Assembly (NCBI GenBank): GCA_003214235.1
Contig: QCLW01000001.1
Location: 1-64,000, forward strand
DNA from: Prochlorococcus sp. AG-418-F16
Lineage (GTDB): Bacteria; Cyanobacteriota; Cyanobacteriia; PCC-6307; Cyanobiaceae
Direction: 5' to 3'
DNA: 64,000 bases
Below are positions 37,434 through 59,065 of this stretch, piece by piece. Position 1 is the first letter of the stretch. Each line of letters begins with the position of its first letter. The notes under the pieces were generated by a model. The model was not told the DNA's origin. It saw only the letters and a list, made by a program, of their open reading frames with translations, and did no database searches. Made by a program: the position numbers and the translations under genes.

Positions 37434-37477
37434 AAATAAAAAAACAGATATCACTTAGGTGTTATCTGTTTTTTTTG
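37434..37477 (+). terminator. intrinsic terminator of the pilin gene
   Basis: AACAGATA...CAC and GTG...TATCTGTT form a 12-bp stem with a four-base loop, followed by eight T. It isolates the pilin transcript from the downstream PilP-like gene. Confidence 0.88.
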
Positions 37478-37488
37478 ATAAATAAAAG

Positions 37489-37977: not shown

Positions 37978-38059
37978 TAATTTAAGTAAGGGTAAAATAA
38001 GTTAGAAATTTCATTAATTTGCTAGAAAATACGAAAAAATATATAATAGCTTACATATA

Positions 38060-39280: not shown

Positions 39281-39287
39281 TTTAAAA

Positions 39288-40940: not shown

Positions 40941-40950
40941 AAATTAATTT

Positions 40951-41994
40951 ATGTCCATTGCAAGAGAAATTGTAGGTTTTGCTGTAAAAGCTGGTTCCTC
41001 AGATATTCATTTAGAAGAAAATTCCCCAATTGCAGTTAGAGTTAACTCTGACATTAAAATAAGTCCTCAAGAGTTAAAGTCTGAAGATATGGACAGATTA
41101 CTTTTGGAATTATTGGGTGAAGAAAAATTAAAAGAATTCAATCAATCTGGAGATCTGGATACATCTATTGGTCTTGAAGGTTTATCTAGATTAAGAATTA
41201 ATGCTTATGTTGCTAATGAAAAAAGATGTTTAACTTTAAGACTTCTACCAAATGATCTTCCAAAGTGGCAAGATTTAGGCCTCCCAGATTCTTTCATTAA
41301 TCTAGCTAAGCTCCATAGAGGACTAGTATTATGCACAGGGCCAACGGGTTCTGGAAAGTCTACAACCTTAGCAGCATTTATTAATTGCATGCTTGAAACT
41401 CAATGCAGACATGTATTAACTATTGAAGATCCTATTGAATTTATTTTTAATCATTCAGAAAACTCCATTATTCATCAAAGGGAAGTTAAAAGAGATACCA
41501 ATTCTTTCTCTACTGCATTGAGAGCAGCCTTAAGAGAAGATCCAGATGTTATTTATATTGGAGAAATGAGAGATCTGGAGACAATTCAACTTGCCATAAC
41601 TGCAGCTGAAACTGGTCATTTGGTTCTAGGAACTCTTCACACTTCATCAGCAGCTAAAACTGTTGAAAGAATCGTTGATGTATTCCCTGCTGACCAGCAA
41701 GAACAAGCAAGACTTCAAGTATCCACATCATTAGCAGGAATAATGTCTCAAACATTATGTAAGAATACAAAAGGAAAAAGATCATTGGCATATGAACTAA
41801 TGGTAAATACCCCAGCTATTGGTAATTTAATAAGAGAAAAAAAAGTAAGTCAGATATACTCGCAACTTCAAACAGGAAGTCAGGATGGGATGAATACCTT
41901 AGAGCAATGTCTTAATAAATTATATGAAGATGGATTAATAACTAAGGAAGAAGCCTTAGGAAAAGCCTCCAATAAAAAAGCTATAAACGACTAA
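40951..41994 (+). CDS. pilT: type IV pilus retraction ATPase PilT
   Basis: A 347-residue motor: 'AGSSDIHLEENSPIAVRVN', Walker A 'CTGPTGSGKSTTLAAFI', Asp box 'LTIEDPIEFIF', Walker B 'REDPDVIYIGEMRDLETIQ', 'AAETGHLVLGTLHTSSAAKTVERIVDVFP' region and 'MNTLEQCLNKLYEDG' tail, with no zinc tetra-Cys. These are PilT rather than PilB traits, so the pilus should be retractile. It lies 10 bases after pilB and 2 before pilC. Confidence 0.95.
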   Translation: MSIAREIVGFAVKAGSSDIHLEENSPIAVRVNSDIKISPQELKSEDMDRLLLELLGEEKLKEFNQSGDLDTSIGLEGLSRLRINAYVANEKRCLTLRLLPNDLPKWQDLGLPDSFINLAKLHRGLVLCTGPTGSGKSTTLAAFINCMLETQCRHVLTIEDPIEFIFNHSENSIIHQREVKRDTNSFSTALRAALREDPDVIYIGEMRDLETIQLAITAAETGHLVLGTLHTSSAAKTVERIVDVFPADQQEQARLQVSTSLAGIMSQTLCKNTKGKRSLAYELMVNTPAIGNLIREKKVSQIYSQLQTGSQDGMNTLEQCLNKLYEDGLITKEEALGKASNKKAIND

Positions 41995-41996
41995 TT

Positions 41997-43160
41997 ATGG
42001 CTGAATACGGTGTCCCAACGGTTGACAAGAAATCACCTAAAAAATCTCCTCCTGTTACTGTTTTTGGAATAACTTTTGGAGAATCATCTTATTTAGACTA
42101 CGAGCCAAATACAAAATTAAAGGTCCCTCAAGCAGATCTTTTAGTCTTTTTCAGACAAATGTCAGTAATGCTTACAAGTGGCGTCCCTTTAGCTCAAGGG
42201 CTTGAATTGTTAGCTGAGAATATGACAAACAAACCATTTGGGGCTTGTATTTTTGATATATCTAAGAAACTGGCAGGTGGAGAGGAATTATCTTCATGTC
42301 TTAATTCATACTCCAGGATATTTACTCCCATAACCGTAGGTTTAATAGAAGCAGGTGAAGCAGGAGGAATATTATCTGAAGTACTAGAAAGATTAGCTTT
42401 ACTATTAGAAGCCAGAAGCAAGATTAAAGGGCAAATAACGGGCGCCTTAATTTATCCTGTTGCAGTATTAGTTTTGGCAGTAACTATAAGTCTTGCTCTA
42501 TTGATTTTTATAGTTCCAACTTTTGATGAAATGTTTAAAAGCATGGGTGCAGAATTACCAGCACTAACTGGATTTATGTTGACACTTTCCAAGATTGTTA
42601 CATCTGTAGGGTTTGCATTAGGTGGTCCTATTTCTATCTTTATAATTTTATATCTCTACAATACAACTTATAAAACCCAATCAGGCCGAGAGTTTTTTGA
42701 TGGCCTATTTTTAAAGATTCCTCTATTTGGAGATTTATTATTAAAATCAGAGCTTGTTTCCATAGCTGATACTTTAAGTACACTTATCAACTCAGGTGTT
42801 CCTCTTGTTGAAGGCATACAAAGATGTATCAATGCCTCTAACAATGAAATAATTAAAATAGCACTAAGAAAATCAATTACATTAGTAACTCAAGGACAAG
42901 AACTTAGTTACTCATTGATTTCATCCAAGGTTATTCCAAGACTATTAGTCTCAATGATTAAAATTGGAGAAGAAACGGGGGCCTTATCATTTATGCTCGA
43001 AAATCTTTCAAAATTCTATAAAAGAGAAGTTGAAGAAGCCGTAACAGTTTTAACAAAAGCAATGGAACCAACAGTAATATTTGTTGTAGCGGCAATAGTC
43101 GGTACTATAGTAATTGCTCTTTATTTACCAATGTTTGATCTTATAAATCAAATGGGTTAA
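41997..43160 (+). CDS. pilC: type IV pilus platform protein PilC
   Basis: A 387-residue inner-membrane platform protein with two GspF/T2SF domains. The first begins 'LLVFFRQMSVMLTSGVPLAQGLELL' and the second 'LKSELVSIADTLSTLINSGVPLVEGIQ'. Transmembrane helices follow each domain, and the C-terminal helix ends 'ALYLPMFDLINQMG', the usual PilC end. It converts motor rotation into pilin insertion. It starts 2 bases after pilT, and its stop overlaps the convergent pilM stop by 4 bases. Confidence 0.95.
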   Translation: MAEYGVPTVDKKSPKKSPPVTVFGITFGESSYLDYEPNTKLKVPQADLLVFFRQMSVMLTSGVPLAQGLELLAENMTNKPFGACIFDISKKLAGGEELSSCLNSYSRIFTPITVGLIEAGEAGGILSEVLERLALLLEARSKIKGQITGALIYPVAVLVLAVTISLALLIFIVPTFDEMFKSMGAELPALTGFMLTLSKIVTSVGFALGGPISIFIILYLYNTTYKTQSGREFFDGLFLKIPLFGDLLLKSELVSIADTLSTLINSGVPLVEGIQRCINASNNEIIKIALRKSITLVTQGQELSYSLISSKVIPRLLVSMIKIGEETGALSFMLENLSKFYKREVEEAVTVLTKAMEPTVIFVVAAIVGTIVIALYLPMFDLINQMG

Positions 43161-44845
43161 TCAACATCTAGAAATGTTGTATCCATTTTAAAACTATCTT
43201 TATTTTTCTCCCCATCCCCAATTACTGAAGTATTTTTAGTTTTTCCCTTTCCTTCTACTTTCTTTTCTTCTAATTTCTTCTCTTCTACTTTCTTTTTATC
43301 TGATCCTATTTTTAAATCTGGTAACGGTGGGAGTTCATTAGTTTTTCCCTTTCCTTCTACTTTCTTTTCTTCTAATTTCTTCTCTTCTACTTTCTTTTTA
43401 TCTGATCCTATTTTTAAATCTGGTAACGGTGGGAGTTCATTAGTTTTTCCCTTTCCTTCTACTTTCTTTTCTTCTAATTTCTTCTCTTCTACTTTCTTTT
43501 TATCTGATCCTATTTTTAAATCTGGTAACGGTGGGAGTTCATTAGTTTTTCCCTTTCCTTCTACTTTCTTTTCTTCTAATTTCTTCTCTTCTACTTTCTT
43601 TTCTTCTAATTTAATTGGTTGTGCTTTATTATGTTCTTGATTTTTAAAGTCAACTTTTGGTGTCTTATTTTTTGATTCTACTTTTACATATTTATCAATA
43701 ACAAAATTATCTTTATCATTTAAATTTTCAATATATGCTTCTCTTAATAAACTTATGCCTAAGCCAATAATTCTTGACATAGAAAATTGATCAATCTTAT
43801 CAGGATCGTAATCAAATTCTCTCAATCTTGGATTCCCAACTGGTGAAACCAAAGAGACATTCATATTCAACGACTCTCCTAAAACTTCTACAAGATTTTT
43901 GTGTTGACTATTCCTTCCACTCAAAAAGATGTTACCTTCCATATCTAAATCATTATCATGCAAGAAATTTGTAAAGGCGCCTTTTATTTCTCTTGTTAAT
44001 ACTTTTACATCTAGCTTAGAAATTGGTAAGTAGTTATTTGTTTTTTTCTTATTATTTTCACTCTCCTTATTAATTGATAGCCTTTCTTCAATAGTTGGAT
44101 AATTACGAATAGATCCAAATCTTTTTAATAAAATCGGCCCAGAAGTATCAAAAATTATGAACTGACTAAATTCATCCAATAACTCCACAGAAATAAGTAG
44201 TTGATTATTTTTTAAATTTTTTATTTCGGTTTCTAATAAATTTGCCAAACATATATGACTCATTTGGAGAGAACATAATTCTAGATCTGCATTTTTTAAA
44301 GTATTTAGAATTAAATTGACATTTTTTTTGGGAATTGAAGTTAAAAAATATTTATTAAATGCTTTATTTTCAAATTTAATTTTTGTCAAAGACGTTGGAT
44401 TTATATCAAAGTCAGAATTATTTATTGAAATTGGAATCTGAATGCCTGAACTAGGATCCTCTAAAAATTCTTTTGCATTATCTTGATCAATATTTTCAGG
44501 TATTTCTATCAATCTGGTATAACAACTATCAGAGGGTAATAAAATCGCGACTCTTTGCCCAGGTATTTTATTTTCTTGCAAAACTCCTAAAATCATACTT
44601 CCAAAAGCTACTGGATCTTTAGGTATGAATTTTTCTAATGCCTCAGTTGGCAATTTTTGACTAGTAACCTTTTTTATAAATAACTGTTTATTTTGACATT
44701 TGGCTACGGCTATATTTAAAAAATCATTTCCGATTTCAATCAAAATAATTTTACTGCTTATTTTTCTAGTTAAGTTATAAAAGAAATTTTTTAAATCCTC
44801 AAAGGTGTAGTCACCAATTTTCTTTTTTGGAGTAGATAAAGTCAT
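43157..44845 (-). CDS. pilM: PilM-like actin-fold protein with a repeat tail
   Basis: A 562-residue protein. The first 390 or so residues resemble PilM (actin-like ATPase fold; 'IILIEIGNDFLNIAVAKCQ', 'QRVAILLPSDSCYTRLIEIP', 'GNIFLSGRNSQHKNLVEVLG'), which binds PilN in the cytoplasm. PilM is usually about 350 residues. Here a Lys/Glu tail of four closely similar 34-residue repeats is added, each with KKVEEKKLEEKKVEGKGKT and mostly ELPPLPDLKIGSD. The gene is last in the pilQ-N-O-minor pilin operon, overlapping the preceding gene by ATGA. Confidence 0.8.
   Translation of the reverse strand: MTLSTPKKKIGDYTFEDLKNFFYNLTRKISSKIILIEIGNDFLNIAVAKCQNKQLFIKKVTSQKLPTEALEKFIPKDPVAFGSMILGVLQENKIPGQRVAILLPSDSCYTRLIEIPENIDQDNAKEFLEDPSSGIQIPISINNSDFDINPTSLTKIKFENKAFNKYFLTSIPKKNVNLILNTLKNADLELCSLQMSHICLANLLETEIKNLKNNQLLISVELLDEFSQFIIFDTSGPILLKRFGSIRNYPTIEERLSINKESENNKKKTNNYLPISKLDVKVLTREIKGAFTNFLHDNDLDMEGNIFLSGRNSQHKNLVEVLGESLNMNVSLVSPVGNPRLREFDYDPDKIDQFSMSRIIGLGISLLREAYIENLNDKDNFVIDKYVKVESKNKTPKVDFKNQEHNKAQPIKLEEKKVEEKKLEEKKVEGKGKTNELPPLPDLKIGSDKKKVEEKKLEEKKVEGKGKTNELPPLPDLKIGSDKKKVEEKKLEEKKVEGKGKTNELPPLPDLKIGSDKKKVEEKKLEEKKVEGKGKTKNTSVIGDGEKNKDSFKMDTTFLDVD
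43228..43612. repeat. 102-bp tandem repeats in the pilM tail
   Basis: Nearly identical units with a 102-base period (equivalent C residues at 43325, 43427 and 43529) encode the 34-residue Lys/Glu + PPLPDL module. There are three full copies plus partial copies at each end. Because 102 is divisible by three, gain or loss of a unit keeps the frame. Confidence 0.95.
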
Positions 44846-45384
44846 AATTTACAGAAAGGCTTAGGTCTACAAAAAACTCTTCTAAGAGGAATTGAATTAT
44901 ATGATATCCCATTATTAGGTTTTGCATAAATTATGTAAATACCAGGTTTGCCAATAGAATTATTCAAATCTAGATAAGAACTTTCAGAAAGTTGCGTAGG
45001 TTTTATACAAATTTTATAAGTATTTGGTACTGCATTATTAGTAATACCTGGTATATCCCATTCTAATTTTGGAAGAGATGTACATTTTAGATTTAAAATA
45101 TAATTTCTATCAATTCCTGGTTCAGATAAAAAGCTTACAATTGAATCAAAAGTCTGATTAATTTGAATCTGATCATTAAGTATGTCACTTAAATCTATTT
45201 CAGAAGAATCAGAGTTATCAGTCGATATAGGATTAAGAGGTTGAAAAAATTTTGCAGTAAACTGAGTTACAACAGCAAAAACTGCTGTAAAGGCTGAAAG
45301 CATTAAAACAGATAAAATTAATTCTGGTAATGTCATCCCTTCATTTTTTAATCTTTTTTTATTCATGAGAAAGATTCTATTCAA
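44842..45384 (-). CDS. minor pilin (prepilin-type N-terminus)
   Basis: A 180-residue protein with leader 'KKRLKNEGMTLPELILSVLML': cleavage after Gly, Met at +1 and Glu at +5, the class III prepilin signal. Substitution of Met for Phe at +1 is tolerated in minor pilins. The ectodomain has four Cys, including a 'RRVFCRPKPFCKL' end resembling PilW/GspJ-like pseudopilins in size. An ATG seven codons downstream (MNKKRL) is an alternative start. It overlaps its neighbours on both sides by 8 and 4 bases. Confidence 0.82.
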   Translation of the reverse strand: MNRIFLMNKKRLKNEGMTLPELILSVLMLSAFTAVFAVVTQFTAKFFQPLNPISTDNSDSSEIDLSDILNDQIQINQTFDSIVSFLSEPGIDRNYILNLKCTSLPKLEWDIPGITNNAVPNTYKICIKPTQLSESSYLDLNNSIGKPGIYIIYAKPNNGISYNSIPLRRVFCRPKPFCKL

Positions 45385-45583
45385 AATTTAAAATTTCAAT
45401 ATCTTGATTCACTAAATCAATTTCTCTTGATGAAAATCCTGCATTTAAAAGAATTTCTTTTTCTTGTTCAGTTATCGGATGCTTCCCAACTGTTTTAAGG
45501 GCCTGATTACTTATATTTAATGCCACTAACATTGCAACAGTAGCTGCGGACATTATCACTGCACCAACTAGTGAAGAAATCAT
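45377..45583 (-). CDS. short pilin-like membrane protein (68 aa)
   Basis: The N-terminal helix 'MISSLVGAVIMSAATVAMLVAL' resembles the hydrophobic alpha-1 of pilins but lacks a clear GFTLxE cleavage site. A short acidic domain follows ('EILLNAGFSSREIDLVNQD'). Its placement between two pilin-like genes, with overlaps of 4 and 8 bases, argues that it is a real minor component. Function is inferred from position only. Confidence 0.6.
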   Translation of the reverse strand: MISSLVGAVIMSAATVAMLVALNISNQALKTVGKHPITEQEKEILLNAGFSSREIDLVNQDIEILNFE

Positions 45584-46017
45584 TTATTTATTTCAAAACT
45601 ACAAAAAGGTTCACTTTCTATGTAACAGGAAAACATTTTATATTTATAAGTGTGGTTCGATGAATTAGTAATAACAACTCTATGTTTATTTGATTTATTT
45701 AGTAAAGCACAATTTTCTGAAAAGATTTTATGTGTTGATGGAGATTGGGTACCTGTAGATACAAAGGTTTCACTATCCTCATATACCGGAGATGAGATTC
45801 TATTTTTTAGATAACTACAAATATCATTATCAGGTACTGTTTGACTATATAAAATCTTCATAATTTGTCTGTCATGTCCTGCTAAAGATGAATTACTATA
45901 ATTATCTAATTTTAAAACACTTATAGGAATTAAATTATTAATATTATTTCCAACTTGCATCATTGCAGCAATTCCTGAAAGCATAGCAATCCCTAATCCA
46001 GCATAAAGATAAGTCAT
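45580..46017 (-). CDS. pilin-like membrane-anchored protein (145 aa)
   Basis: It starts with a hydrophobic helix right at the N-terminus ('MTYLYAGLGIAMLSGIAAMM') without a typical prepilin leader, followed by an ectodomain with four Cys ('NDICSYL', 'SENCALL', 'MFSCYIES', 'FCSFEINK'). The size and disulfide potential fit a minor pilin. It overlaps the next gene by ATGA and lies 36 bases after pilO. Confidence 0.6.
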   Translation of the reverse strand: MTYLYAGLGIAMLSGIAAMMQVGNNINNLIPISVLKLDNYSNSSLAGHDRQIMKILYSQTVPDNDICSYLKNRISSPVYEDSETFVSTGTQSPSTHKIFSENCALLNKSNKHRVVITNSSNHTYKYKMFSCYIESEPFCSFEINK

Positions 46018-46053
46018 TTCAAAATTCTAATAAGTTTATCTGACAGGAGTGAT

Positions 46054-46707
46054 TCAAATTTTTCCATAGACATTCATTTTTAGAGATATTTCAAGTAATT
46101 TAGCCGAAGTATTTTTCTTTTTTTCATCATTATTTTCCTCCTCAGAAGTAACATTGATATCTTTAAATAAAATTATATTTTCTTGAAATTCTAAATCTCT
46201 AAAAAATGATAAGAGGTCCTCGAATTTTGCTTTAAATTTAAAATCTATGTTGTATTTTTTTACTCCCTCTACAAGTAAAGGATCTGGATTTAAATTTATT
46301 TGATTTTGTAAATCACTATTTTGTGATTCAACATACATTATTGATGATTTAGGACTAATAGAAGAAACATTGATATTATTTTTTACTGCTAATTCACCTA
46401 ATCTAGAAAGGAATGTTTCCAGATTAGAAGTACCTGAAATTAAATTTATTATCTGATATTTTTCTTTATTTAATTTTTCAAGTTTTTCATTGATTATTTT
46501 ATATTGAGCCTTTAAATTTGGAAGATCATTTTTCTTTCTTAAATATTCATTATATTCATTATTTATTTTATTTGATTTTATATATTTAGGAATAACAAAT
46601 GCACTTACTATTATTAAAGAAATAAAGGATGATATTAATACTGGTAATAATACAGCTGATTTTTCAGGCGTAATAAATCTTTTATTTTTGATATTAGAGT
46701 TAGTCAT
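46054..46707 (-). CDS. pilO: PilO-like alignment protein
   Basis: A 217-residue bitopic protein: a short cytoplasmic N-terminus, one transmembrane helix ('LLPVLISSFISLIIVSAFVIP'), a coiled coil ('YLRKKNDLPNLKAQYKIINEKLEKL') and a ferredoxin-like domain with 'LETFLSRLGELAVKNNINVSSISP'. This is the PilO layout. PilO dimerises with PilN in the periplasm. It overlaps pilN by 4 bases. Confidence 0.85.
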   Translation of the reverse strand: MTNSNIKNKRFITPEKSAVLLPVLISSFISLIIVSAFVIPKYIKSNKINNEYNEYLRKKNDLPNLKAQYKIINEKLEKLNKEKYQIINLISGTSNLETFLSRLGELAVKNNINVSSISPKSSIMYVESQNSDLQNQINLNPDPLLVEGVKKYNIDFKFKAKFEDLLSFFRDLEFQENIILFKDINVTSEEENNDEKKKNTSAKLLEISLKMNVYGKI

Positions 46708-47384
46708 TTTATCTCTTCAAGATTTCTTAAAAGTTCAATTCTGTTAGAAAGTCCATAAGAGCCAAGTTTTTTTAAATACTTTTGATTAATATCTTTATAT
46801 TCATTAGTAATTCTTGTTTTTATAGTTGCATCATAAGTACCACTATTTTCCTCATCCGATTTAATATCTGTTAAATCAATTTGATTAAAATTAATAAATT
46901 CTGAATTATCAAGGCTTATTAAAAATCCATTTATATAACTTAAATATTCTTTCCCAGTTTGTTTACTTTTCAGACTTAAATTATTACCTTGAGTACTTAA
47001 AAAAGTTAAATTAATATTATTAGGTATTAGTAAAGAAATTTCTTTAAGAAGAGCTGAACTTGAACTAATATTAACTATTGAATTTTTAAGTTTAGTATTA
47101 AAACCTGCTACATTTTTGAGATCTTTAGATTCTTTGTCTAATTTAATTTGTAGAGAGTCATATTCATCAGAATAGTTCTTAATTTGAAATTTCTTGTTTT
47201 CTAATATCTGAGATCTTAAGATAAATGCGAATCCAGAAATTAAAGTTATTGAAATAATACTAATTCCAATATAAATTCCTTTTTTAATAAACTTTCTATT
47301 ATCTATAAAATAAGGGTCTAATAAATATTCTTCCTTCCTCCTTTGTCGAAGTAAGTCGTTTTGTTTGAAATTTAAATTATTCAT
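46704..47384 (-). CDS. pilN: PilN-like alignment protein
   Basis: A 226-residue bitopic protein with a basic cytoplasmic N-terminus, a transmembrane helix near residues 35-55 ('GIYIGISIISITLISGFAFIL'), a coiled coil and a periplasmic domain ('ISLLIPNNINLTFLSTQGNNLSL'), matching PilN. A canonical PilM-binding 'INLLP' peptide is not obvious; 'NNLNFKQNDLLRQRR' occupies that place. It lies between pilQ and pilO in the same operon. Confidence 0.82.
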   Translation of the reverse strand: MNNLNFKQNDLLRQRRKEEYLLDPYFIDNRKFIKKGIYIGISIISITLISGFAFILRSQILENKKFQIKNYSDEYDSLQIKLDKESKDLKNVAGFNTKLKNSIVNISSSSALLKEISLLIPNNINLTFLSTQGNNLSLKSKQTGKEYLSYINGFLISLDNSEFINFNQIDLTDIKSDEENSGTYDATIKTRITNEYKDINQKYLKKLGSYGLSNRIELLRNLEEIK

Positions 47385-47416
47385 TGAAAATAAAATATCT
47401 TAATCTGAAAAAAAAA

Positions 47417-49345
47417 TTAATCATTTAATATTTTAGGAGTAACAAGAATTATTAGTTCACTTTTTCTTTTAACTTTTGTGTCGCTTCGGAATAATCTCCC
47501 CAATATTGGTACATCTCCAATTAGTGGAACTTTAGAAGTAGTTACATTATCTTCATCCTTAAGAACTCCTGTAAGAATTAATGTATTACCATTCTTAACT
47601 CTTATAGAACCAGTATCTAACTTTCTAACACTCAAAGTACTTGCTGTTCCGCAACTGCCTACAGTTTCAGTTCTTGTTACAGCTGAAATGGCGGGGCTCA
47701 AAGAGAAAGTTACATACCCATTATCATCAATTTTTTCAACCTTTGCACCAAATGTTATTCCAGCAGTTCCAGGAGTAGCAGTACATGTTGTCACACCATC
47801 TTCTGTCGTAACATCAAAAGATGTTGTAACAGTCTCTCCAACTTTAACAAAACCTTCATTTGCAAATGGTCTGCCTATTCCTGCAGAATCCAAACCTCCA
47901 GCAGCTGATGCGATACCAGAAACCATAGCATCAGAATTCTCACCTAATATAAGTGTTGGGGAAGCCATAATTTTTGCATTTTCATTAGTAAGTTTGGTTT
48001 GTATCCAATTTAAGAATTGATTATTTGTTAAAGGAGTTCCACTATTGAAAGTATTTACTGTTGAACCAGCAGCTGGTTCCTTTGGAGTATTATTTCCTGT
48101 AATTATAGACATCCCTGAATTTACTATTAATGTTGAACCTCCCTTAGTAACATCAAAAGCATTATTTGCTATATCATTTTTTGTTAGAGAAACATCAATA
48201 ATTTTTATAGATAAAGCTACCTGTCTATGCCTCGCATCCATAGATTTTATATATTTTTCAGCAGTAATTATAAGCTGTTCTGTTCCAACTAAAGTTATAG
48301 TTTGCAACCTTAAATCGACTGTCCCTATAAGGCCTTGCAAAGGTCCTCCCTGAGAACCATATGAGTTAATGAAATTTTCATTTAGTTCAGCCTTATTTAC
48401 GAAAGAATCTCCAATTTCTTCTCCATCAACTGAGGATCCTCTTACAAGAACTTTTGAAATCTTTGCTCCTAATGTTGCTAAATAATCTCCAACAGATGCC
48501 GCATTTGCTTGATTTAATCGATAAGTTTTTGATAATTTTGGAATCAAGCTTTTGTTGAAAATATTTTTACCCACGAAGATGATATTTTTTTCAATTTTTG
48601 CTTGCAAGCCAGATGCCATAAGAATACTATTAAAAACATCTGAAATATCTTTATTATTAAAATTTGCTGTAATCAAAGGAAGAATATTTTTTTTACTTTC
48701 ATTATTTTCGTCTTCTACAGGATCCTCAATCAGAACCGTTCCATAACCTGAAATCTTTGAAATCAATTTCAATGTTTCTAGGGCATCTGCTTTAACAAGA
48801 TTCAATGTGAGTTTCTCATCTTTTAGTTGAACATAACCTCTCGTTGGGATTTCAAATTCCCCAACTGATATATCTCCTACAATTGGAGTGGGTAAATAAT
48901 TTTCTTTTAATTCTCTGTTTTCAATAGTTTTTTTATTTATATTTATCCTTATTTTTTTTCTATTAATTGAATTTTTTTTTGGATTGGATAAATCTATACC
49001 AATATTATCTAAATTATCATTTTTAAAAGAATCATCCTCTTTATCAATTTTCTTTAATTCTTCATTATCCTTTAAATTTTTATAAATTTTAATTTTTTCA
49101 CCGCTTCCATTTTCTTCTAAATTATCAATATTAGGAATAAGTTCATTTGCTTCATTTATTGCTTCTTGTATTGATTTAGAATCAATATTTAGTTTTTCAT
49201 TTAATTCAATTAGTTTTTTATTAATTTCACTGTTATCTGTATATTTTGTATTCGCAATAGAATTAATCAGTAAAGGATTAAATAATATTAGAAAAACAAA
49301 AATTAATTTTTTTATTTTTAATTGCTTTTTATAAATTAAATTCAT
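47417..49345 (-). CDS. pilQ: type IV pilus secretin PilQ
   Basis: A 642-residue outer-membrane secretin with an N-terminal signal segment ('KKLIFVFLILFNPLLINSI'), an acidic low-complexity region (residues 60-150), a secretin-N/STN domain from about 170 ('YVQLKDEKLTLNLVKADALETL'-type block) and the C-terminal secretin domain with the hallmark 'VPLIGDVPILGRLFRSDTKV' and 'SELIILVTPKIL'. An AMIN domain is not evident. It forms the exit channel for the pilus. It lies 4 bases after the small secreted protein and 32 bases before pilN. Confidence 0.93.
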   Translation of the reverse strand: MNLIYKKQLKIKKLIFVFLILFNPLLINSIANTKYTDNSEINKKLIELNEKLNIDSKSIQEAINEANELIPNIDNLEENGSGEKIKIYKNLKDNEELKKIDKEDDSFKNDNLDNIGIDLSNPKKNSINRKKIRININKKTIENRELKENYLPTPIVGDISVGEFEIPTRGYVQLKDEKLTLNLVKADALETLKLISKISGYGTVLIEDPVEDENNESKKNILPLITANFNNKDISDVFNSILMASGLQAKIEKNIIFVGKNIFNKSLIPKLSKTYRLNQANAASVGDYLATLGAKISKVLVRGSSVDGEEIGDSFVNKAELNENFINSYGSQGGPLQGLIGTVDLRLQTITLVGTEQLIITAEKYIKSMDARHRQVALSIKIIDVSLTKNDIANNAFDVTKGGSTLIVNSGMSIITGNNTPKEPAAGSTVNTFNSGTPLTNNQFLNWIQTKLTNENAKIMASPTLILGENSDAMVSGIASAAGGLDSAGIGRPFANEGFVKVGETVTTSFDVTTEDGVTTCTATPGTAGITFGAKVEKIDDNGYVTFSLSPAISAVTRTETVGSCGTASTLSVRKLDTGSIRVKNGNTLILTGVLKDEDNVTTSKVPLIGDVPILGRLFRSDTKVKRKSELIILVTPKILND

Positions 49346-53282: not shown

Positions 53283-53553
53283 CCCAATAGACATATTGAA
53301 AAGGTGTTTACTTGACTTATTTCTTCAATAATTATAGAAGGAACTAATAAAAAAAAAGAACTACAAAAAATAAAACGCTTACTACTTACACGAATAGAAG
53401 TCCTCGCTTTACCTAATACTGGCTTTATAGCCATTAGCATCTAAGACTTTATTTAATTTAAGGACATTTTCGGAGGATATTTAAAAGGAAAAAATTCCCC
53501 ATATGTTCCCCTCTTTTAGTACAAAGTCAACGACCAATCACAAATTAGTAACA

Positions 53554-53634
53554 ATGGATGAGATTGCATATTTATTTTTTCTAATACTTCTACAGCCTGT
53601 AATAGTTGAGTTCTACTGGGGGGGAATGGGTTGA
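53554..53634 (+). CDS. 26-residue membrane peptide next to the tRNA fragment
   Basis: The ATG frame MDEIAYLFFLILLQPVIVEF ends just where the duplicated tRNA promoter region begins. One hydrophobic helix. It is very short and could be chance. The 270 bases before it hold nothing that I can support. Confidence 0.25.
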   Translation: MDEIAYLFFLILLQPVIVEFYWGGMG

Positions 53635-53714
53635 TGTATAAAAGTTTTTAGGACAATTTAATGTCACCCTTGGAGGGGTGGTCGAGTGGTTTAAGGCTCT
53701 AGTCTTGAAAACTA
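53633..53714 (+). repeat. duplicate of the tRNA-Ser promoter and 5' half
   Basis: This 82-base segment repeats 55771-55853: the upstream block (gatgtata ... ggacaattta) with a few changes, then the first 43 bases of tRNA-Ser(UGA) without change. Identity stops in the 3' side of the anticodon stem, and the remaining half is replaced by unrelated AT-rich DNA. A shorter echo of the anticodon arm (20 bases, 2 differences) lies at 53854-53873. It is a truncated, non-functional tRNA remnant and a likely old recombination junction. Confidence 0.9.
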
Positions 53715-54025
53715 TAAGGTATTTTGAAAGAATAAAATAAGTATTACTTGAAACTCGTTAATATAACCTACATCTTACTAACACTCAAAAGTTCAATAAA
53801 ATTCTAGTTAACTGTGGTGTAGCCAATCTGTAGCTACTTTCTATTTTTGGAACGGCTCTAGTCTTAAAATCTAAAGTTGACCTCATTATATGGAAGTGTT
53901 ATCAGCAATATTTAAAAATTTTACTACTTTTATCTTATAGTAAGATATTGATGTCACTTAATTAAAAATAAAAAATTAAACAGTCTCAAAAAAACAGAGT
54001 AGAATCTAATCAACAATTTTAAAAA
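53635..54025. other. gene-free stretch holding tRNA-Ser fragments
   Basis: Apart from the 5' tRNA-Ser half-copy (53672-53714) and the small anticodon-arm echo (53854-53873), these 390 bases hold no coding frame. The end leads into the signal-peptide gene at 54026. Confidence 0.6.
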
Positions 54026-54358
54026 ATGAAAAAATCAAACTTAATCTTACCTTTACTTTTAGGCTCATTTTTTTTTAACACAAATGTATTTTCATCAGTC
54101 ATTGATATTGATGGGAATAACAGTAATAACATTCAAAACAATAGTTTTCTAATTGCGAGTAGCTGTGGAGGTGGTAGTTCTCCTGGCGGCAAGAACTCAA
54201 AAAAAGCAAAAGCTCATAGAAAGAAACGAAAGGCTGCCGCTCAATTGAATTACTATAAAAGAGCGTTGACTAAAGCTGCTGCTGCAGGATCAAAAAATAC
54301 AAGCGATATTCAAGTTAGGATACAAGAATTAGAAGTTATTATTAATGGTCATGAATGA
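54026..54358 (+). CDS. secreted basic protein (110 aa)
   Basis: A 110-residue protein with a signal peptide ('LILPLLLGSFFFNTNVFSS'), a short 'SCGGGSSPGGKNS' Gly/Ser linker and a very basic Lys/Ala-rich helical part ('KKAKAHRKKRKAAAQL'), ending in an acidic helix. It has one Cys. It would be exported to the periplasm. It lies between tRNA-Ser fragments and has no relative that I recognise. Confidence 0.6.
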   Translation: MKKSNLILPLLLGSFFFNTNVFSSVIDIDGNNSNNIQNNSFLIASSCGGGSSPGGKNSKKAKAHRKKRKAAAQLNYYKRALTKAAAAGSKNTSDIQVRIQELEVIINGHE

Positions 54359-54614
54359 AAAGGTAAATAAAATAGAACTAGAACTTCACTTCTGTTTTCA
54401 TGACAGTACGCCCACTAATTAATGAGACTGGCCAACCTATTCCCAATGCTTTAAGCGTCTTAGATTGAGACCTGATTTTAGAAAATAACCAATATTGTTC
54501 TTAGGATTAGTAATAAAAATAATCAGATTTAAAACAAGGTTTGCAGGTAAATTCAAAGGCTTCAAAAGTAGTAAAGCCATGCCCTGAGTTACATTAAAAC
54601 CTTTGTTTTCCAAT

Positions 54615-54760
54615 TAACTAGGTAGTTGATGGGTAGGCGGTGCATGGAATTTTCTTTTCTTTCTTTTTGATCTCTTATAAACAACAAATACCCCTAGTCC
54701 TAATAAAGGCATCAATAAACCTTCTACAAAAATTGGAAAGTTAAGCAGCATTATATTCAT
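54615..54760 (-). CDS. probable membrane microprotein overlapping the 54741 gene
   Basis: The minus strand begins MNIMLLNFPIFVEGLLMPLL and continues with a hydrophobic helix and a very basic segment (VVYKRSKR...), a convincing single-pass pattern. It overlaps the end of the upstream gene by 20 bases. The frame beyond the basic A-rich run is uncertain in my reading, so the 3' end is approximate. Confidence 0.35.
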
Positions 54761-55019
54761 CCCTATCTTCAAGCTCTCTCATAAATCTTTTATCTAATAA
54801 ATAATTGTCTATAAGCTCTGCTGCCATCTGTATCTCAGCAGCAGGTTCTTGTAGATCTTTTTCTAATAAGTAATTATCTATAAGCTCTAAATTGTTATTT
54901 TCTTTAATTTGTTTATCGCTGTTTAATAATTCTCTTATGTAGTTATATACAAGCTCTTTGTCGTATCCGCTTTCTCTAATTTCTTTCAACATTTCCTCTG
55001 GAATTTGCATAATCTTCAA
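54741..55019 (-). CDS. acidic helical protein with internal repeats (92 aa)
   Basis: A 92-residue acidic protein containing a repeated helix: 'ELVYNYIRELLNSDK', 'ELIDNYLLEKDLQE' and 'ELIDNYLLDKRFMRE', the last two also near-identical in DNA. It has no membrane segment or Cys. Repeated amphipathic helices suggest a protein-binding or oligomerising surface. No family recognised. It lies in the accessory region upstream of tRNA-Ser. Confidence 0.55.
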   Translation of the reverse strand: MKIMQIPEEMLKEIRESGYDKELVYNYIRELLNSDKQIKENNNLELIDNYLLEKDLQEPAAEIQMAAELIDNYLLDKRFMRELEDRDEYNAA

Positions 55020-55099
55020 CTCCTATGTGAAAGCCATATACGCATACTCACGAAGATATAAGAAAAAAGCAAGGGAATCGCCAAAAAAACAGGGTTTAT

Positions 55100-55129
55100 A
55101 AAGGGAACTAAAGGGAACTAAAGGGAACT
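55100..55129. repeat. 10-bp tandem repeat, three copies
   Basis: AAAGGGAACT is repeated three times head to tail, ending at the stop codon of the minus-strand gene at 55129. The length is not a multiple of three and it lies in the 3' untranslated part, where slippage would be harmless to coding. Confidence 0.9.
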
Positions 55130-55359
55130 CAATAGGAAAGCATATTGCATTGTTTTGAATAATATTTAGAACCAAGTTTCTTTTGCATTTGTCTCTCTGT
55201 ATATCTGCCTTTTTCTAAACAAACTAATCTTTTGTAATCAAGTTTTGCTGTTGTCTTTAAACTCCCTGCAATAGACATCAAATTAAGAGCAATAATCGCT
55301 AATAAGATGCTCATTGGGTACTTTTTGATAAAAGGTAGAATTTTGTTTTTCATTTTCAA
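55129..55359 (-). CDS. single-pass two-Cys small protein, copy B
   Basis: A 76-residue protein: basic N-terminus, transmembrane helix ('MSILLAIIALNLMSIAGSL'), then 'LVCLEKGRYTERQ' and 'YYSKQCNMLSY'. It shares layout with the gene at 51820-52086 ('S-L-K' after the helix, two Cys about 35 residues apart). Its ATG overlaps the stop of the following paralogue-like gene (ATGA), so the two are co-translated. Confidence 0.6.
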   Translation of the reverse strand: MKMKNKILPFIKKYPMSILLAIIALNLMSIAGSLKTTAKLDYKRLVCLEKGRYTERQMQKKLGSKYYSKQCNMLSY

Positions 55360-55622
55360 TTAAATAAACGTTTTGTCCAACCTTTACTTTTCATACATTT
55401 TGTATACCCATTATCTTCGTCAAAAAAAGTTTTACAATTATCTCTATCCTTTTTAAATTTCTCATTTGCAGTTTTCTTTTTAATTTTTAATTGCATTTGT
55501 TCTACTCGCTCCTCTCTGAGACGCATCTTCTCACCTTCTTGTTGGAAATAAAAAACAGTCCCTAAAATAAGAGTTACCGCAATTGTTGAAGTAGCTATAG
55601 CAGTTATATCTTCTGATTTCAT
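55356..55622 (-). CDS. single-pass two-Cys small protein, copy C
   Basis: An 88-residue protein: N-terminal transmembrane helix ('ITAIATSTIAVTLILGTVFYF'), a highly charged coiled region ('EEGEKMRLREERVEQMQLKIKKK'-type, rich in Glu, Arg and Lys), then 'DNCKTFF' and 'TKCMKSKGW'. It is the first gene of the pair with 55129-55359. The region upstream (about 55665-55705) is alike to that upstream of copy A. Confidence 0.6.
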   Translation of the reverse strand: MKSEDITAIATSTIAVTLILGTVFYFQQEGEKMRLREERVEQMQLKIKKKTANEKFKKDRDNCKTFFDEDNGYTKCMKSKGWTKRLFN

Positions 55623-55663
55623 GAAATTCTTTAAATCCTTTTTGATATTTTTGATAGGAATTT

Positions 55664-55704
55664 TATTAAAGATAACACTTCAATTATTGTCAGTCGATCT
55701 AAAC
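55664..55704 (-). promoter_or_regulatory. promoter-like block shared by two two-Cys genes
   Basis: Minus strand: TTTAGATCGACT, then a closely similar run (..CAAT.ATT.AAGTG.TAT.TT). The same block occurs at about 52117-52158, upstream of the 51820-52086 gene, the same distance from the coding start. Conservation outside the genes indicates a duplicated promoter or operator. Confidence 0.5.
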
Positions 55705-55810
55705 TAATAAGAATTAGCTTTTCACTAAATGGAAGATAAAGAATATTCTCCTGAAGATTTAGATCAAGCGGATGTATAATAGTTTACGAGGACAATTTAA
55801 TCTCACCCTT

Positions 55811-55897
55811 GGAGGGGTGGTCGAGTGGTTTAAGGCTCTAGTCTTGAAAACTAGCGTGTCTGCAAGGGCACCGTGGGTTCGAATCCCACCCCCTCCG
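55811..55897 (+). tRNA. trnS-UGA: tRNA-Ser (anticodon UGA)
   Basis: An 87-base class II tRNA: acceptor arms GGAGGGG / CCCCTCC, D-arm GTCGAGTGGTTTAAGGC, anticodon stem CTAGT / ACTAG with loop CTTGAAA (anticodon TGA), a long variable arm (GTGTCTGCAAGGGCACC region) and T-arm GGGTTCGAATCCC. No CCA is encoded. All stems pair. It is flanked by a 5' half-copy upstream (53672) and a decayed 3' half-copy downstream (58174), which points to use as an integration site. Confidence 0.98.
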
Positions 55898-56007
55898 TAC
55901 TTTGAAGAAAATAGATTTATATAATATTTTTGCCTTTTAAGATGTTTTCGTAAAACTAATAGCCTTTTTTTAATAGTTTCAGTCTAAGTTAGTCTTTTAA
56001 AAATAAC

Positions 56008-56307
56008 TCATCTAATCTTCTTTTTTTTTTGTAAATTTGATTTCCCTTTTTTTATAGAATATTTCGCAAAATCTATTAACCCAGAGAATTTGTAATTTGG
56101 GTCAACATAATGCTGAATAACATAAAAGGCAAAATAGTAGGCTCGACAGAAACCCCATATTGCTAATAAAAGGAAAACTATAGTTTTAACATTAAAGTTT
56201 AATAAAACTAAGAGAATTGAAGATATAAAACCAGTTAAAAAAAGTAAAAAGGCTTTTAGATAAAGTAACCAAACTTTGTTTATATCTTTCAATAATCGCT
56301 CGAACAT
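56008..56307 (-). CDS. small membrane protein downstream of pilB2
   Basis: A 99-residue protein with two or three transmembrane helices ('LLYLKAFLLFLTGFISSILL', 'TIVFLLLAIWGFCRAYYFAF') and a very basic tail ('KKGKSNLQKKKKIR'). It overlaps the end of pilB2 by 19 bases and is presumably co-expressed. It has no recognised domain. It could be an accessory factor of the second motor, judged from linkage only. Confidence 0.6.
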   Translation of the reverse strand: MFERLLKDINKVWLLYLKAFLLFLTGFISSILLVLLNFNVKTIVFLLLAIWGFCRAYYFAFYVIQHYVDPNYKFSGLIDFAKYSIKKGKSNLQKKKKIR

Positions 56308-58013
56308 ACCCTTATTACTTCAGAAAGCGTAGTTAAATGATCTTTAACTAACTCTACGCCATATTGAGTAAGTGTAAGCATTGAATTTTCATTAACAGCC
56401 AACTCCTCAATTTCTTTATCATTAAGACCACTTGAAATTCCATTTTGAATATTTCTTTCAAGAAGAAGGAGTTCATATACCCCAACTCTACCTTTATATC
56501 CAGAACCCTGACATATGGGACAAAGAGTATTCTCTTTTTTACGATTTAATTTTTCTTCTGAAGATAGAGAGTTAGCATACATTATTGGAGTATTCTCTTG
56601 AATATTAAATTCAATCGCTTCATTTTCAGAAATCGGTTTTTTTATACCGCATCCTGAGCAGACTTTTCTAAGTAATCTTTGAGCTAATACACCCCTTATA
56701 CTTGCATTCAACTTATATATAGGTACTTGCATATCCAACAATCTAGTTAATGAAGTTGTAGATGAATTAGCGTGCATTGTAGTAAAAACTAAATGACCAG
56801 TATCAGCCGCATCAAGAGAGGCTTCTGCTGTTTCTGGATCTCTTGTCTCTCCAATAAGAATTACGTCGGGGTCGTGCCTTAAGAAGGCTCTTAAAACTAT
56901 GGCAAATGTTTGTCCTTTTGCCCTATTTATCTGAACTTGTTGGATATCTCCGCCCATATCATATTCAATAGGATCCTCAGCAGTAAATATATTCAAATCT
57001 CCCGTATCCTTTTCTCTTAATGCTGCAGCAAGAGTAGTTGACTTCCCAGATCCTGTAGGTCCTGAGACAATTACAACCCCATTTTTAGCATTCATTATCT
57101 TCCTGAAGTCTTTTCTTACACTTTCAATATGGATTAAGGTATCTAAATTTAAAGCTGATGGATCACTATTTAACATTCTTAGAACCATTTTCTCCCCATA
57201 TTTCCCAGGCAATGTCGAACAACGAAATTCAAGCCTATTGCCTTCTAAAAGCCTAAGAATTTTCCCATCTTGAATAGCTCTTCTTTCAGCAATATCCATC
57301 ATGGCCATATTTTTTAAGCACGCGACTAATTGAATACCTGGTTTTCTAGGCATGGACATGAATTTTTGCAAAACACCATCTTTTTTTACTCTTATTTTGT
57401 AACCTTCTTCTCTTGGCTCTATATGGATATCAGATAGTCCATTTTTTCTTGCATATATTAATACCTTTCCTGCAGCCTCTTGGATTTTACTAAAAGACAT
57501 CTCTGTCTCTAAATCTATAATTTGTTCCTCTAGATAGTCTTCATAAGTGTCTCTTCCGGAGTCTTCATCTTCATCTTCGTCTTCATCTTCATCTTCATCT
57601 TCGTCTTCTTCCTTATCTTTATCAAATTCGAATTTAAAAGCATCTTCAGATTCAGAAACATCCCTTATGGTCTCTAAAACGGAATCTTCATCAATTTGAG
57701 AGATTTCTAGTGAATCACCATTTATAAATCTTTCTTCAGAAGCAAGATCTAAAATTTCTTGTATTTCTTCTTGCGGATACTCTATGAAGATGCATTTTAA
57801 ATTATTTCCAGATTGGTTGATTCTTTGTTTTATTGGTTCAGCAATAGTTCCTAAGTAAGAATAATTTGCAATCGCTATATTTAATACTCCAGGTTGCATT
57901 GGCAACCCAGACTCAAGATTAAGTGGAACAACTAAATTATCTCTGCACCATTGAAGAGAAAAATATTTATCAACTAGTTTTCTTACGCTTTTATAATTAT
58001 ATTGTGTAGCCAT
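56289..58013 (-). CDS. pilB2: second PilB/GspE extension ATPase with an Asp/Glu run
   Basis: A 574-residue paralogue of the PilB at 39288-40940, aligning from the N-terminus ('LVDKYFSLQWCRDNLVVPL' in both) to the C-terminus ('LTQYGVELVKDHLTT'). Walker A 'GPTGSGKSTTLAA', Asp box 'TAEDPIEYDM', Walker B 'HDPDVILIGETRDPETAE', and zinc pairs 'CSGCG' and 'CPICQGSG' are intact, so it should be active. The difference is an alternating Glu/Asp run of about 16 residues in the linker near residue 130. It has no pilT, pilC or pilin beside it. It lies between tRNA-Ser and a tRNA 3' remnant. Confidence 0.9.
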   Translation of the reverse strand: MATQYNYKSVRKLVDKYFSLQWCRDNLVVPLNLESGLPMQPGVLNIAIANYSYLGTIAEPIKQRINQSGNNLKCIFIEYPQEEIQEILDLASEERFINGDSLEISQIDEDSVLETIRDVSESEDAFKFEFDKDKEEDEDEDEDEDEDEDEDSGRDTYEDYLEEQIIDLETEMSFSKIQEAAGKVLIYARKNGLSDIHIEPREEGYKIRVKKDGVLQKFMSMPRKPGIQLVACLKNMAMMDIAERRAIQDGKILRLLEGNRLEFRCSTLPGKYGEKMVLRMLNSDPSALNLDTLIHIESVRKDFRKIMNAKNGVVIVSGPTGSGKSTTLAAALREKDTGDLNIFTAEDPIEYDMGGDIQQVQINRAKGQTFAIVLRAFLRHDPDVILIGETRDPETAEASLDAADTGHLVFTTMHANSSTTSLTRLLDMQVPIYKLNASIRGVLAQRLLRKVCSGCGIKKPISENEAIEFNIQENTPIMYANSLSSEEKLNRKKENTLCPICQGSGYKGRVGVYELLLLERNIQNGISSGLNDKEIEELAVNENSMLTLTQYGVELVKDHLTTLSEVIRVCSSDY

Positions 58014-58400
58014 TGATTGCTTTTGTTCATAATAAATTTTAAATCAGTTTCTTATTTAAGTCACGATAGTCTAGGGTTTGTGGTCAAAACCGGGACATTA
58101 GTGGATCTAATACCCAATAAAATAAGGACCAGTCAACGATTAAACGTTAACTGATCCACATAAGCTATTCAGTTATGGTCAGGCTTGAAAACTAGAGTAT
58201 CTGCAAGGGTATTATTATAGGCTCAAATCATCTCCTCGTTCTTAGTAATTGTCGAGATTTACATGCTGTTTTAAAAATTCGAAAATTATAAATTAATACT
58301 TATATTTCAAAATCTATCGAAGAAAGATATTTTAATTGGCTTAATATCTAACCAGCTGATTAAAAAAGCAAAAAAGTGATAAAAAAATCTTATTAAAAAA
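58014..58400. other. gene-free stretch with inverted repeats and a tRNA remnant
   Basis: Upstream of pilB2, these 387 bases contain a large nested inverted repeat: GTGGATC (58101) with GATCCAC (58153), and between them CAGT-AACG / CGTT-ACTG around a short loop. The tRNA-Ser 3' remnant follows. No coding frame is supported. Confidence 0.6.
58174..58238 (+). pseudogene. decayed 3' half of tRNA-Ser(UGA)
   Basis: CTTGAAAACTAG then GT.TCTGCAAGGG match the anticodon loop, 3' anticodon strand and variable arm of the intact tRNA at 55811. The T-arm and acceptor part are recognisable but mutated (GGCTCAAATCAT-CTCCTCG). The 5' half is absent. With the intact tRNA in the same orientation upstream, this is what an old att direct repeat would look like after decay. 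Confidence 0.8.
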
Positions 58401-58676
58401 TTATTGAGTTTTTCTAAAACAAAAATCTCCTATTAATAGGACCTTATTATATTTATTTTTTTCATTACTAATTCTTAAAAGATAATTTGGAGATATAGAA
58501 AAAATAGTCCCAATAGAAACGTTCCCATCGCTGCCGTCTTGTATTATTTTAAAGAAACATTTTCTCCCATTTTCTGAAATTAATCCAGGCCAAATTGAGC
58601 CAATCCCTAGAAAAAATCCTATCAAGAAAAACATAAATGGTTGAAGAATTCTCACTTTAGATTTTCTCCGAGCCAT
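58401..58676 (-). CDS. membrane-anchored small protein (91 aa)
   Basis: A basic N-terminus (MARRKSKVRILQP), a transmembrane helix ('FMFFLIGFFLGIGSIWPGLI') and a beta-rich extracytoplasmic part with two Cys ('GRKCFFKII', 'IGDFCFRK'). Regular composition supports a real gene. No family recognised. Confidence 0.6.
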   Translation of the reverse strand: MARRKSKVRILQPFMFFLIGFFLGIGSIWPGLISENGRKCFFKIIQDGSDGNVSIGTIFSISPNYLLRISNEKNKYNKVLLIGDFCFRKTQ

Positions 58677-59065
58677 AATTGTATATATTAGATTCTTGTT
58701 CTATTTTAATTATAAATCAAATTATTTTTCAATTTATCCTAAGTACCTTATTACTCTTAACTTAATGTCGAATGAACCATTATTAATACTATTAAACAAG
58801 TAACTAAACCTATAGAAATAAAAATTTTTAAAGAATTTAAAATATGATAATTTTTTTTAAAATTTTTAAGCTTTTTTCAGATTTCTCATTATTCAATTAT
58901 CAACACCAAACTTTATAAGCTTATTAGTAGAGTTTTAATATTTAAAAATTCAAACCAATATGAAAAAAATAATATCTACAAATAAAATTAATCTATTTAG
59001 GACTAACATCAAAAACATTTATTTTATTTATTTATTGTTATCATTTATTTTTAATATATATTTTT
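58677..59065. other. intergenic AT-rich stretch, nothing supported
   Basis: About 390 bases between divergent genes, with no coding frame longer than a dozen codons and no convincing hairpin. It presumably holds promoters for both sides. Confidence 0.5.

Follow-up and report, generated by a model that had tools for sequence, protein, structure and literature searches.

Integration into tRNA genes is textbook behaviour of mobile DNA; in almost every case it is the 3′ end that is displaced, and as a rule the promoter stays with the gene. In Prochlorococcus islands, the tycheposons of Hackl et al. (2023) are reportedly tRNA-anchored elements with tyrosine recombinases. The ends of Islander-type tDNA islands are marked by an intact tDNA and a displaced fragment; within that set anticodon-centred sites are common (2083 islands), and a 5′ fragment is left by only 159 of 3919 islands (PMC4383910). 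Integrases that replace the promoter are represented by the archaeal pTN3 type and rare bacterial cases (PMC8371274). The attachment sites (attPs) reported for T7-like cyanopodoviruses (P-SSP7, S-TIP37) all match the first half of tRNA-Leu, and stable integration of these phages was not found (PMC8776855).

The locus described here lies in a 64,000-nucleotide stretch of Prochlorococcus sp. AG-418-F16 (the window). Like a tycheposon, it is an insertion at a tRNA gene in a Prochlorococcus island, and relatives carry tyrosine recombinases at the tRNA and, in L069 and L103, a helicase/primase-type gene (called phage-type on the L103 homologue). These recombinases are distant, and the likeness to tycheposons is one of description, not of reference sequences. 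In contrast to tycheposons, neither a functional recombinase gene nor a replication gene is present in the window (none of the hallmark replication or mobility genes was found at 53.4–58.2 kb), the 3′ scar matches a podovirus attP, and many units at the locus hold one gene or none. The intact tRNA, displaced fragment and anticodon-centred site recall Islander islands, but here 5′ fragments outnumber 3′ ones, the two kinds share a single core, and most units lack an integrase. As with pTN3-type integrases, the element would restore the 5′ half, and the tRNA would thus be expressed from the element's promoter; however, recombinases and host differ, and this attB receives insertions from the 3′ side as well. 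In the virus contig that matches the 3′ scar (L166; IMG/VR, 46.9 kb), the gene order around integrase, attP and RNA polymerase is that of T7-like cyanopodoviruses, and identity to P-SSP2/3/7 is 75–77% across much of an 8-kb comparison, but the attPs here match the 3′ half of tRNA-Ser(UGA) instead of tRNA-Leu, and att arms are fixed in host chromosomes. With integrons the locus shares only the habit of carrying single-gene cassettes in tandem; the arms here are linear repeats. We consider it very probable that the anticodon arm of this tRNA has been used as attB from both sides, and that the window records multiple insertions.

The tRNA-Ser(UGA) gene and its probable crossover core

tRNA-Ser(UGA) is the sole tRNA that ARAGORN detects in the window (Table 1). 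Its anticodon arm is a 17-bp sequence, CTAGT-CTTGAAA-ACTAG, in which 5-bp inverted repeats flank a 7-bp spacer, and it probably forms the core used by tyrosine recombinases. Several features accompany it. First, every tRNA-Ser copy in the window is oriented alike and starts or stops at this core, as do displaced halves in dozens of relatives, and chance similarity is therefore rejected. Second, an inverted-repeat core with a 6–8 bp spacer and arm-type repeats are both present at the locus; the arm repeats have an 11-bp period and are absent at other periods and in shuffles. Third, junction types A and D have a common inner motif beside the core, in mirror orientation (mean 9.7 versus -7.3 +/- 1.1 for shuffles), although it is missing from the D ends of the window and L074. 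Finally, 11 of the examined loci have tyrosine recombinases resembling XerC-like 4a8e (E 1.5e-6) at -1.4 to -0.2 kb relative to the tRNA.

Table 1. Features of the tRNA-Ser(UGA) locus, in window coordinates, with the basis of each assignment.
Feature	Position	Strand	Basis
Tyrosine recombinase gene stump, first 27 residues, stop inside	53400-53480	-	tblastn E 2e-4, 59% identity
Arm-type repeat AATTCCCCATA TGTTCCCCTCT, 11-bp period	53493-53514	+	putative right end of lost integrase-bearing element
Displaced promoter and tRNA-Ser 5′ half	53633-53714	+	self match and L110 alignment
Arm B, putative element left end	53715-53850	+	profile match 53720-53847
Echo, probable third att junction, then arm C	53854-53892	+	G432 junction match
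Cassette gene, 110-aa protein, N-terminal signal-like sequence	54026-54358	+	phmmer E 1e-11 to 1e-12
Promoter and 5′ half, probably element-delivered, now driving the intact tRNA	55771-55853	+	identity to L110
Intact tRNA-Ser(UGA)	55810-55898	+	ARAGORN; Rfam tRNA E 9e-11
Probable crossover core CTAGTCTTGAAAACTAG, anticodon arm	55838-55854	+	common break point of all displaced halves
Stretch after tRNA resembling integrase side of podovirus attP	55926-55997	+	local alignment
Small membrane-type protein, 99 aa	56008-56307	-	same gene in G220 and G378
pilB/gspE-type ATPase (T2SSE)	56292-58013	-	Pfam PF00437 E 2e-100
Podovirus attP arm, RNA-polymerase side	58057-58180	+	L166 alignment
Displaced, decayed native 3′ half (core 58179-58195)	58181-58238	+	self match; intact orthologue in L074

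An initial annotation had interpreted the tRNA-Ser(UGA) with displaced halves of itself as scars of site-specific integration, left by at least two events at a locus expected to vary among relatives. The halves are borne out by ARAGORN, the 94% identity of the 5′ copy, the 3′ half of L074 and a junction in G432; the shared core and the uniform orientation of the displaced halves agree with integration at the tRNA; and the events now counted number at least three or four. Relatives carry empty, one-sided, two-sided and integrase-bearing versions of the locus; one set of fragments common to every relative is not seen. Displaced 5′ halves are present in 39 of 87 sampled genus genomes (the 87 being those with a detectable 5′ half) and displaced 3′ halves in at least 16 genomes, and the gene appears to be a two-sided integration hotspot. 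The displaced 5′ half with its promoter, described at first as less usual, is the commonest type at this locus.

Empty sites were examined by comparing the flank of a displaced half with the flank of the intact tRNA in genomes without the insertion. Flanks of displaced 5′ halves match empty sites closely (L108/L128 0.96, L107/L125 0.95, L117/L125 0.93) and the intact promoter of their own genome less well (0.59–0.72), and flanks of displaced 3′ halves likewise match empty sites (L093/L069 0.97, L124/L090 0.97, L096/L108 0.96). At the level of sequence, these comparisons support insertion on both sides. The best empty-site matches of the window itself are 0.81 for the 5′ flank and only 0.72 for the 3′ flank, which suggests loss of the native sequence that once adjoined the scar on its right.

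Half copies could in principle also arise without a recombinase, through segmental duplication or if tRNA-bearing fragments underwent homologous recombination, and tandem units with repeated ends (e.g. in G220) could arise by unequal crossing over. However, the break points at the core are identical in dozens of genomes, the core is abutted by non-homologous DNA with recombinase-type arms, integrase genes are present at the tRNA, and promoter and terminator are swapped, not copied. We regard this origin as very improbable and reject pure segmental duplication; the junctions were presumably made by recombinases and not by copying. Similarly rejected, and hardly conceivable, is that the fragments are decayed pseudogenes of an old tRNA cluster with no mobile DNA involved: the weakness of the 3′ fragment when taken alone would fit, but the complementary halves lie on their proper sides with sharp ends at one core, and both empty sites and identity to a phage attP are found.

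Junctions upstream of the tRNA

Two element types are proposed. A type U element would consist of promoter, 5′ half, core and arm, and its integration would shift the previous promoter and 5′ half in the upstream direction while supplying fresh ones. A type D element would consist of arm, core and 3′ half, pushing the old 3′ half downstream and supplying a fresh one.

The displaced 5′ copy is 94% identical to its intact counterpart over 83 bp (E 7.8e-30 in the genome). It contains tRNA positions 1–44 (53671-53714, with the core at 53699-53714), stopping where the anticodon arm ends on its 3′ side. The region 53495-53714 aligns at 82% with positions -175 to +45 relative to the tRNA in L110, an integrase-bearing relative whose sequence is 100% identical to the window across 55771-55898; at the place of the window's arm-type repeat L110 has ATGTTCCCCATATGTTCCCCAC. 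Although no integrase was visible at first, a stump of one is present, of the same subfamily as the L110 and L105 integrases and at the exact gene start of the integrase in integrase-bearing relatives. The window appears to retain the right end of an integrase-bearing 5′-side element, with promoter, 11-bp arm repeats and 27-residue stump. An intact integrase is absent from the window's element, full genes being found in relatives; the assembly is 72% complete, and the one full-length tyrosine recombinase detected in it is a genus-wide enzyme of 389 aa. A search of genome contigs for an exact type-B junction pattern gave no match.

Arm B follows the displaced half, with 11-bp repeats TGTAGCCAATC TGTAGCTACTT at 53818-53839, and is matched at E 5.6e-8 by a profile trained without the window. 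Beyond it lies the echo, which as a tRNA match reaches only E 0.5. Over 39 bp, its core (53858-53874) and the arm directly behind are 90% identical to the corresponding G432 junction (E 1e-8, whole genome searched), 53876-53919 is the top match of an arm-C profile trained without the window (E 0.058), and in L091, L100 and L123 arm C is immediately followed by a homologue of the 110-aa protein. The echo might instead belong to the arm-B element as an accessory site for integrase binding, since a further core-like site lies within the left end of elements that carry an integrase, at 160 bp from the core in L117 and 101–104 bp in L069, L103 and L104 (159 bp in the window). But arm-C sequence and an arm-C cassette gene stand behind the window's echo and neither stands behind the L117 site; an accessory site is unlikely, and we take the echo as a probable third integration junction.

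Virus contigs with an exact 5′ half all hold the whole tRNA gene, and hence no virus-borne type U attP was found. A search for the U-type integrase among viruses gave distant relatives only; three adjoin tRNA-Ser(UGA), on its 3′ side, and these three contigs contain no clear displaced half.

The downstream unit and its podovirus arm

The 3′ fragment taken alone is weak (29 bp, 90%, E 1.4e-4) but is nonetheless real, since L074 (G220), alignable to the window over 55803-58209 at 82.5%, carries a perfect 3′ half in the corresponding position. The cargo of the 3′-side unit is the pilB/gspE-type ATPase gene, a 73% nucleotide paralogue of 39288-40940. The D arm of the window falls outside both the D profile family and the A family and is assigned through L166, G220 and G378; a profile built from D arms other than those of the window and G220 does not recognize it, which led to the separate podovirus match.

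In L166, the attP is laid out as arm, core and tRNA-Ser(UGA) 3′ half, an arrangement that lies beside integrase and RNA polymerase genes in this and seven further contigs. The L166 attP matches the window at 93.5% identity over 153 bp, and the arms are identical at 119 of 126 positions; a second comparison gives 94% over 132 bp (E 1.4e-53). The stretch after the intact tRNA resembles the integrase side of the attP, with an alignment score of 57 (shuffles 27.9 +/- 4.6, maximum 48). The 3′ scar carries an attachment site of a T7-like cyanopodovirus; the initial reading of the 3′ repeat as a tyrosine-recombinase footprint missed this origin. Of 266 genus genomes, 3 contain the phage arm, and in each it lies on the downstream side of tRNA-Ser, right in front of pilB. 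The window's arm is 94% identical to the phage but only about 74–82% to G220, which a simple shared ancestral insertion would not predict.

Both phage att arms are present in the correct order, the start of pilB lies 44 bp away from the arm, where the phage RNA polymerase gene would begin and in the same direction, and the 99-aa gene occupies the expected place of the phage integrase. T7-like cyanophages are known to integrate (PMC8776855), and the region could be a true prophage remnant, mostly deleted, with pilB and its neighbour in place of the phage genome. However, no phage protein remnants were found in the 3′-side DNA beyond the att arms, and no podovirus integrase was found in 266 genomes, a search of little weight as it had no positive control. 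The same pilB unit and arm also recur in G220 (in tandem) and G378, which fits a cassette better than repeated prophage replacement. A prophage remnant seems somewhat unlikely, and the pilB unit would have moved as a cassette via the phage attachment site without replacing a prophage.

Proposed history and implications

Read from left to right, the window would record four events, probably in this order. First, 53400-53714 would be the right end of an integrase-bearing U element (stump, arm repeats, promoter and 5′ half). Second, another U insertion would have brought arm B. Third, a nested or adjacent U cassette (53854-54358, beginning with the echo) would have brought arm C and the secreted-protein gene; the right ends of the second and third insertions would now be merged as the promoter and 5′ half at 55771-55853. 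Fourth, a D insertion with attP arms of the T7-like podovirus kind at its ends would have placed the pilB paralogue between them, with the decayed 3′ half (58181-58238) last. The tRNA would have been functional throughout, as every element restored the missing half.

We tentatively suggest, with somewhat less than even confidence, that tRNA-Ser(UGA) is a two-sided platform for small, non-autonomous cassettes that insert in tandem and are moved in trans, the pilB unit hijacking a podovirus attachment site. Units of 0.17–3.4 kb, many of them holding one gene for a secreted protein and some gene-free, would add upstream or downstream of the tRNA, exchanging its promoter or terminator, and integrases of larger elements and of T7-like cyanophages would act in trans. 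Such units may be mobile at present.

One essential tRNA here repeatedly exchanges its promoter or its downstream flank, and two unrelated integrase systems, those of the 5′-side elements and of T7-like cyanophages, appear to converge on one 17-bp site. The T7-like cyanophage attPs known so far all match tRNA-Leu, and these phages had no known stable integrant. The scar also bears on a question standing since P-SSP7 was sequenced, whether T7-like cyanophages leave lasting marks in their hosts; now that a tRNA-Ser attP has been identified in eight phage contigs, and the matching arm in three host genomes, PCR and read mapping can address it. If the pilB unit does move by a phage integrase, this would be a direct virus-borne route for shuffling pilus genes in the most abundant phototroph.

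A common core of the displaced tRNA halves

A search of the tRNA-Ser(UGA) gene, the sole tRNA gene of the window, against the window's own genome (an assembly about 72% complete) recovers its promoter and 5′ half upstream, a 3′ fragment downstream, and the small anticodon-arm copy, or echo, seen in the initial annotation (see table). Halves parted from the intact gene in this way recur across the genus. Of 121 genomes drawn from the genus, Prochlorococcus, 87 have a detectable 5′ part of the gene; in hand counts from tables of listed places, 39 of these 87 carry a displaced 5′ half as well, and at least 16 a displaced 3′ half.

The 60 neighbourhoods read (the intact tRNA is absent from two) share several features. 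First, displaced 5′ halves lie upstream without exception and end at tRNA positions 36–52. Second, displaced 3′ halves lie downstream without exception and start mostly at positions 28–35. Third, the region common to both is CTAGTCTTGAAAACTAG, the anticodon arm, with a 7-bp loop between two 5-bp inverted repeats, a layout noted for tRNA genes as the canonical tyrosine-recombinase core (PMC8371274). Finally, this one core is used in two directions. We infer serial site-specific integration at the core, in which each integrating element would restore whichever tRNA half it displaced. One 18.4-kb contig (L105, G475:C15) has the tRNA-Ser locus twice in inverted orientation and is possibly a single-cell amplification chimera; genome G474 shows a similar pattern, and the inverted duplications in both genomes may be assembly artefacts.

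Empty sites, element ends and integrases

At empty sites (L077, L087 and L108 among others) tRNA-Ser runs directly into a conserved flank, and a core gene lies at a distance of about 0.4 kb; where the site is occupied, this flank instead comes after the displaced 3′ half, with identities up to 0.97. Likewise, the sequence upstream of the displaced 5′ half corresponds to that before the intact tRNA in genomes without a displaced half (0.96 for L108/L128, 0.95 for L107/L125), and the promoter of the intact tRNA in an occupied genome differs from that of its displaced 5′ half. These two observations indicate that the displaced 5′ half retains the native promoter and that the element brings a new one. 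Bacterial cases of promoter replacement are reported to be uncommon (PMC8371274), and in Islander a 5′ fragment was left by 159 of 3919 islands (PMC4383910). A terminator-like feature, a GC-rich hairpin with a T run after it, comes with several 3′-side elements.

Conserved arms adjoin the core on the side facing away from the restored tRNA half, and were sorted into three families on the 5′ side (A, B and C) and one, D, on the 3′ side. Direct repeats with an 11-bp period are present in A, B and D – other periods being near the shuffled level – and an inner motif beside the core is common to A and D in mirror orientation. The smallest unit is 166 bp and has no gene; others of about 1 kb contain one or two small genes, and the largest reach 7–11 kb. 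Integrase-bearing relatives have a gene for a 381–405 aa tyrosine recombinase at about −0.2 to −1.4 kb, reading away from the tRNA (seen in 11 of the loci read and, as judged by position, in some 20 of the 121 genomes); this family, similar to solved XerC/XerD-like recombinases, retains the R, K, HxxR, H and Y columns. Among named elements, tycheposons would be the nearest to those of the 5′ side.

Integrase-bearing elements have a second core-like palindrome 101–160 bp in from their left end, with a 7-bp spacer that sometimes differs. A near-identical N-terminal signal-like sequence (MKRFL-PLLA-LALPTAVNA) precedes unrelated bodies in cassette genes upstream and downstream of the tRNA. Distant relatives of the tRNA-Ser integrase are encoded directly 3′ of tRNA-Ser(UGA) in three IMG/VR contigs of 43–55% GC (L179, L180 and L183). 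Most genus genomes also encode, at a site other than tRNA-Ser and next to a cobO-like gene, a tyrosine recombinase homologue of near-constant length (389 aa) that might serve the cassettes in trans.

Features of the window and of related loci (tRNA-Ser(UGA) matches are from the search against the window's genome)
Feature	Location	Match or content
Intact tRNA-Ser(UGA)	55810–55898	
Promoter and 5′ half	53633–53714	E 7.8e-30
3′ fragment	58181	E 1.4e-4
Echo	53854	E 0.5 as tRNA-Ser(UGA) match
Integrase stump	53400–53480	E 2e-4
11-bp arm repeats	53493–53514	
Match to L110/L105 right end	53495–53714	82% in alignment
Arm B	53720–53847	E 5.6e-8
Gene after echo	54026	
Match to virus contig L166	58057–58180	119/126 identical
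Segment after 3′ scar	58239–59063	91-aa ORF, 58401–58676
Pilus/secretion-like cluster	31512–49345	two prepilin-like genes, pilB, pilT-like, pilC-like, secretin, prepilin peptidase-like; named by eye from ORFs
Island's own pilB	39288–40940	
Ligase-like gene	4522–5271	PHROG E 2e-31
Second core-like palindrome (relative to tRNA start)	L069 −8547; L103 −7979; L104 −6519; L117 −7574	
Genes with common signal-like N-terminus	upstream L098, L112, L104; downstream L082, L092, L095	
389-aa recombinase homologue	G000:C27:6034–7095 (L129)	

Probable successive elements on the 5′ side of the tRNA in the window

The stretch 53495–53714 matches the right end that L110 and L105, both integrase-bearing elements, have in common, and the window retains arm repeats and the N-terminal 27 residues of the integrase of these elements, which argues that the displaced 5′ half was itself brought by an earlier integrase-bearing element. 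Arm B (profile trained without the window) directly follows the core of this half, and is followed by the echo, whose core and following sequence match the arm-C junction of genome G432 (90% over 39 bp, E 1e-8); the next gene has homologues that follow arm C in other loci. Within 55771–55898, the currently used promoter and 5′ half are 100% identical to L110. A homologue of the window's short NAD-dependent DNA ligase-like gene adjoins the tRNA-Ser integrase in L110 and L105.

A podovirus arm and a pilB unit on the 3′ side

The core sequence flanking the island stops near 31165 and continues from 59064, and a type IV pilus / type II secretion-like cluster fills the part of the island upstream of tRNA-Ser. 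A segment of about 0.8 kb, in which we found no separate scar, divides the 3′ scar from the conserved core flank.

The arm beside the 3′ scar matches a 46.9-kb virus contig (L166, IMGVR_UViG_3300030451_002253), a T7-like cyanopodovirus that resembles P-SSP2, P-SSP3 and P-SSP7 and in which the gene for a 297-aa integrase is followed by the tRNA-Ser(UGA) 3′ half, core, arm and RNA polymerase gene, a layout also found in seven further virus contigs. The sequence directly 3′ of the window's intact tRNA also resembles the integrase side of the L166 phage. For T7-like cyanophages all reported attPs match tRNA-Leu, integration is transient, and neither stable lysogens nor intact prophages were found (PMC8776855).

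The phage arm is present in three of 266 genus genomes – the window's (E 1.4e-53), G220 (E 4e-17) and G378 (E 1.2e-9) – in each downstream of tRNA-Ser and just before a pilB gene reading away from the arm, with the same small gene behind. The window's copy is paralogous to the island's own pilB (73%), and G220 carries the unit twice in tandem, with the pilB-like gene of the second copy shortened. A search for phage protein remnants found none. Because the unit is present in three genomes, in tandem in one, and without phage genes, we prefer to regard it as a non-autonomous cassette that would use the podovirus attachment site; the main alternative is that it is a gutted prophage.
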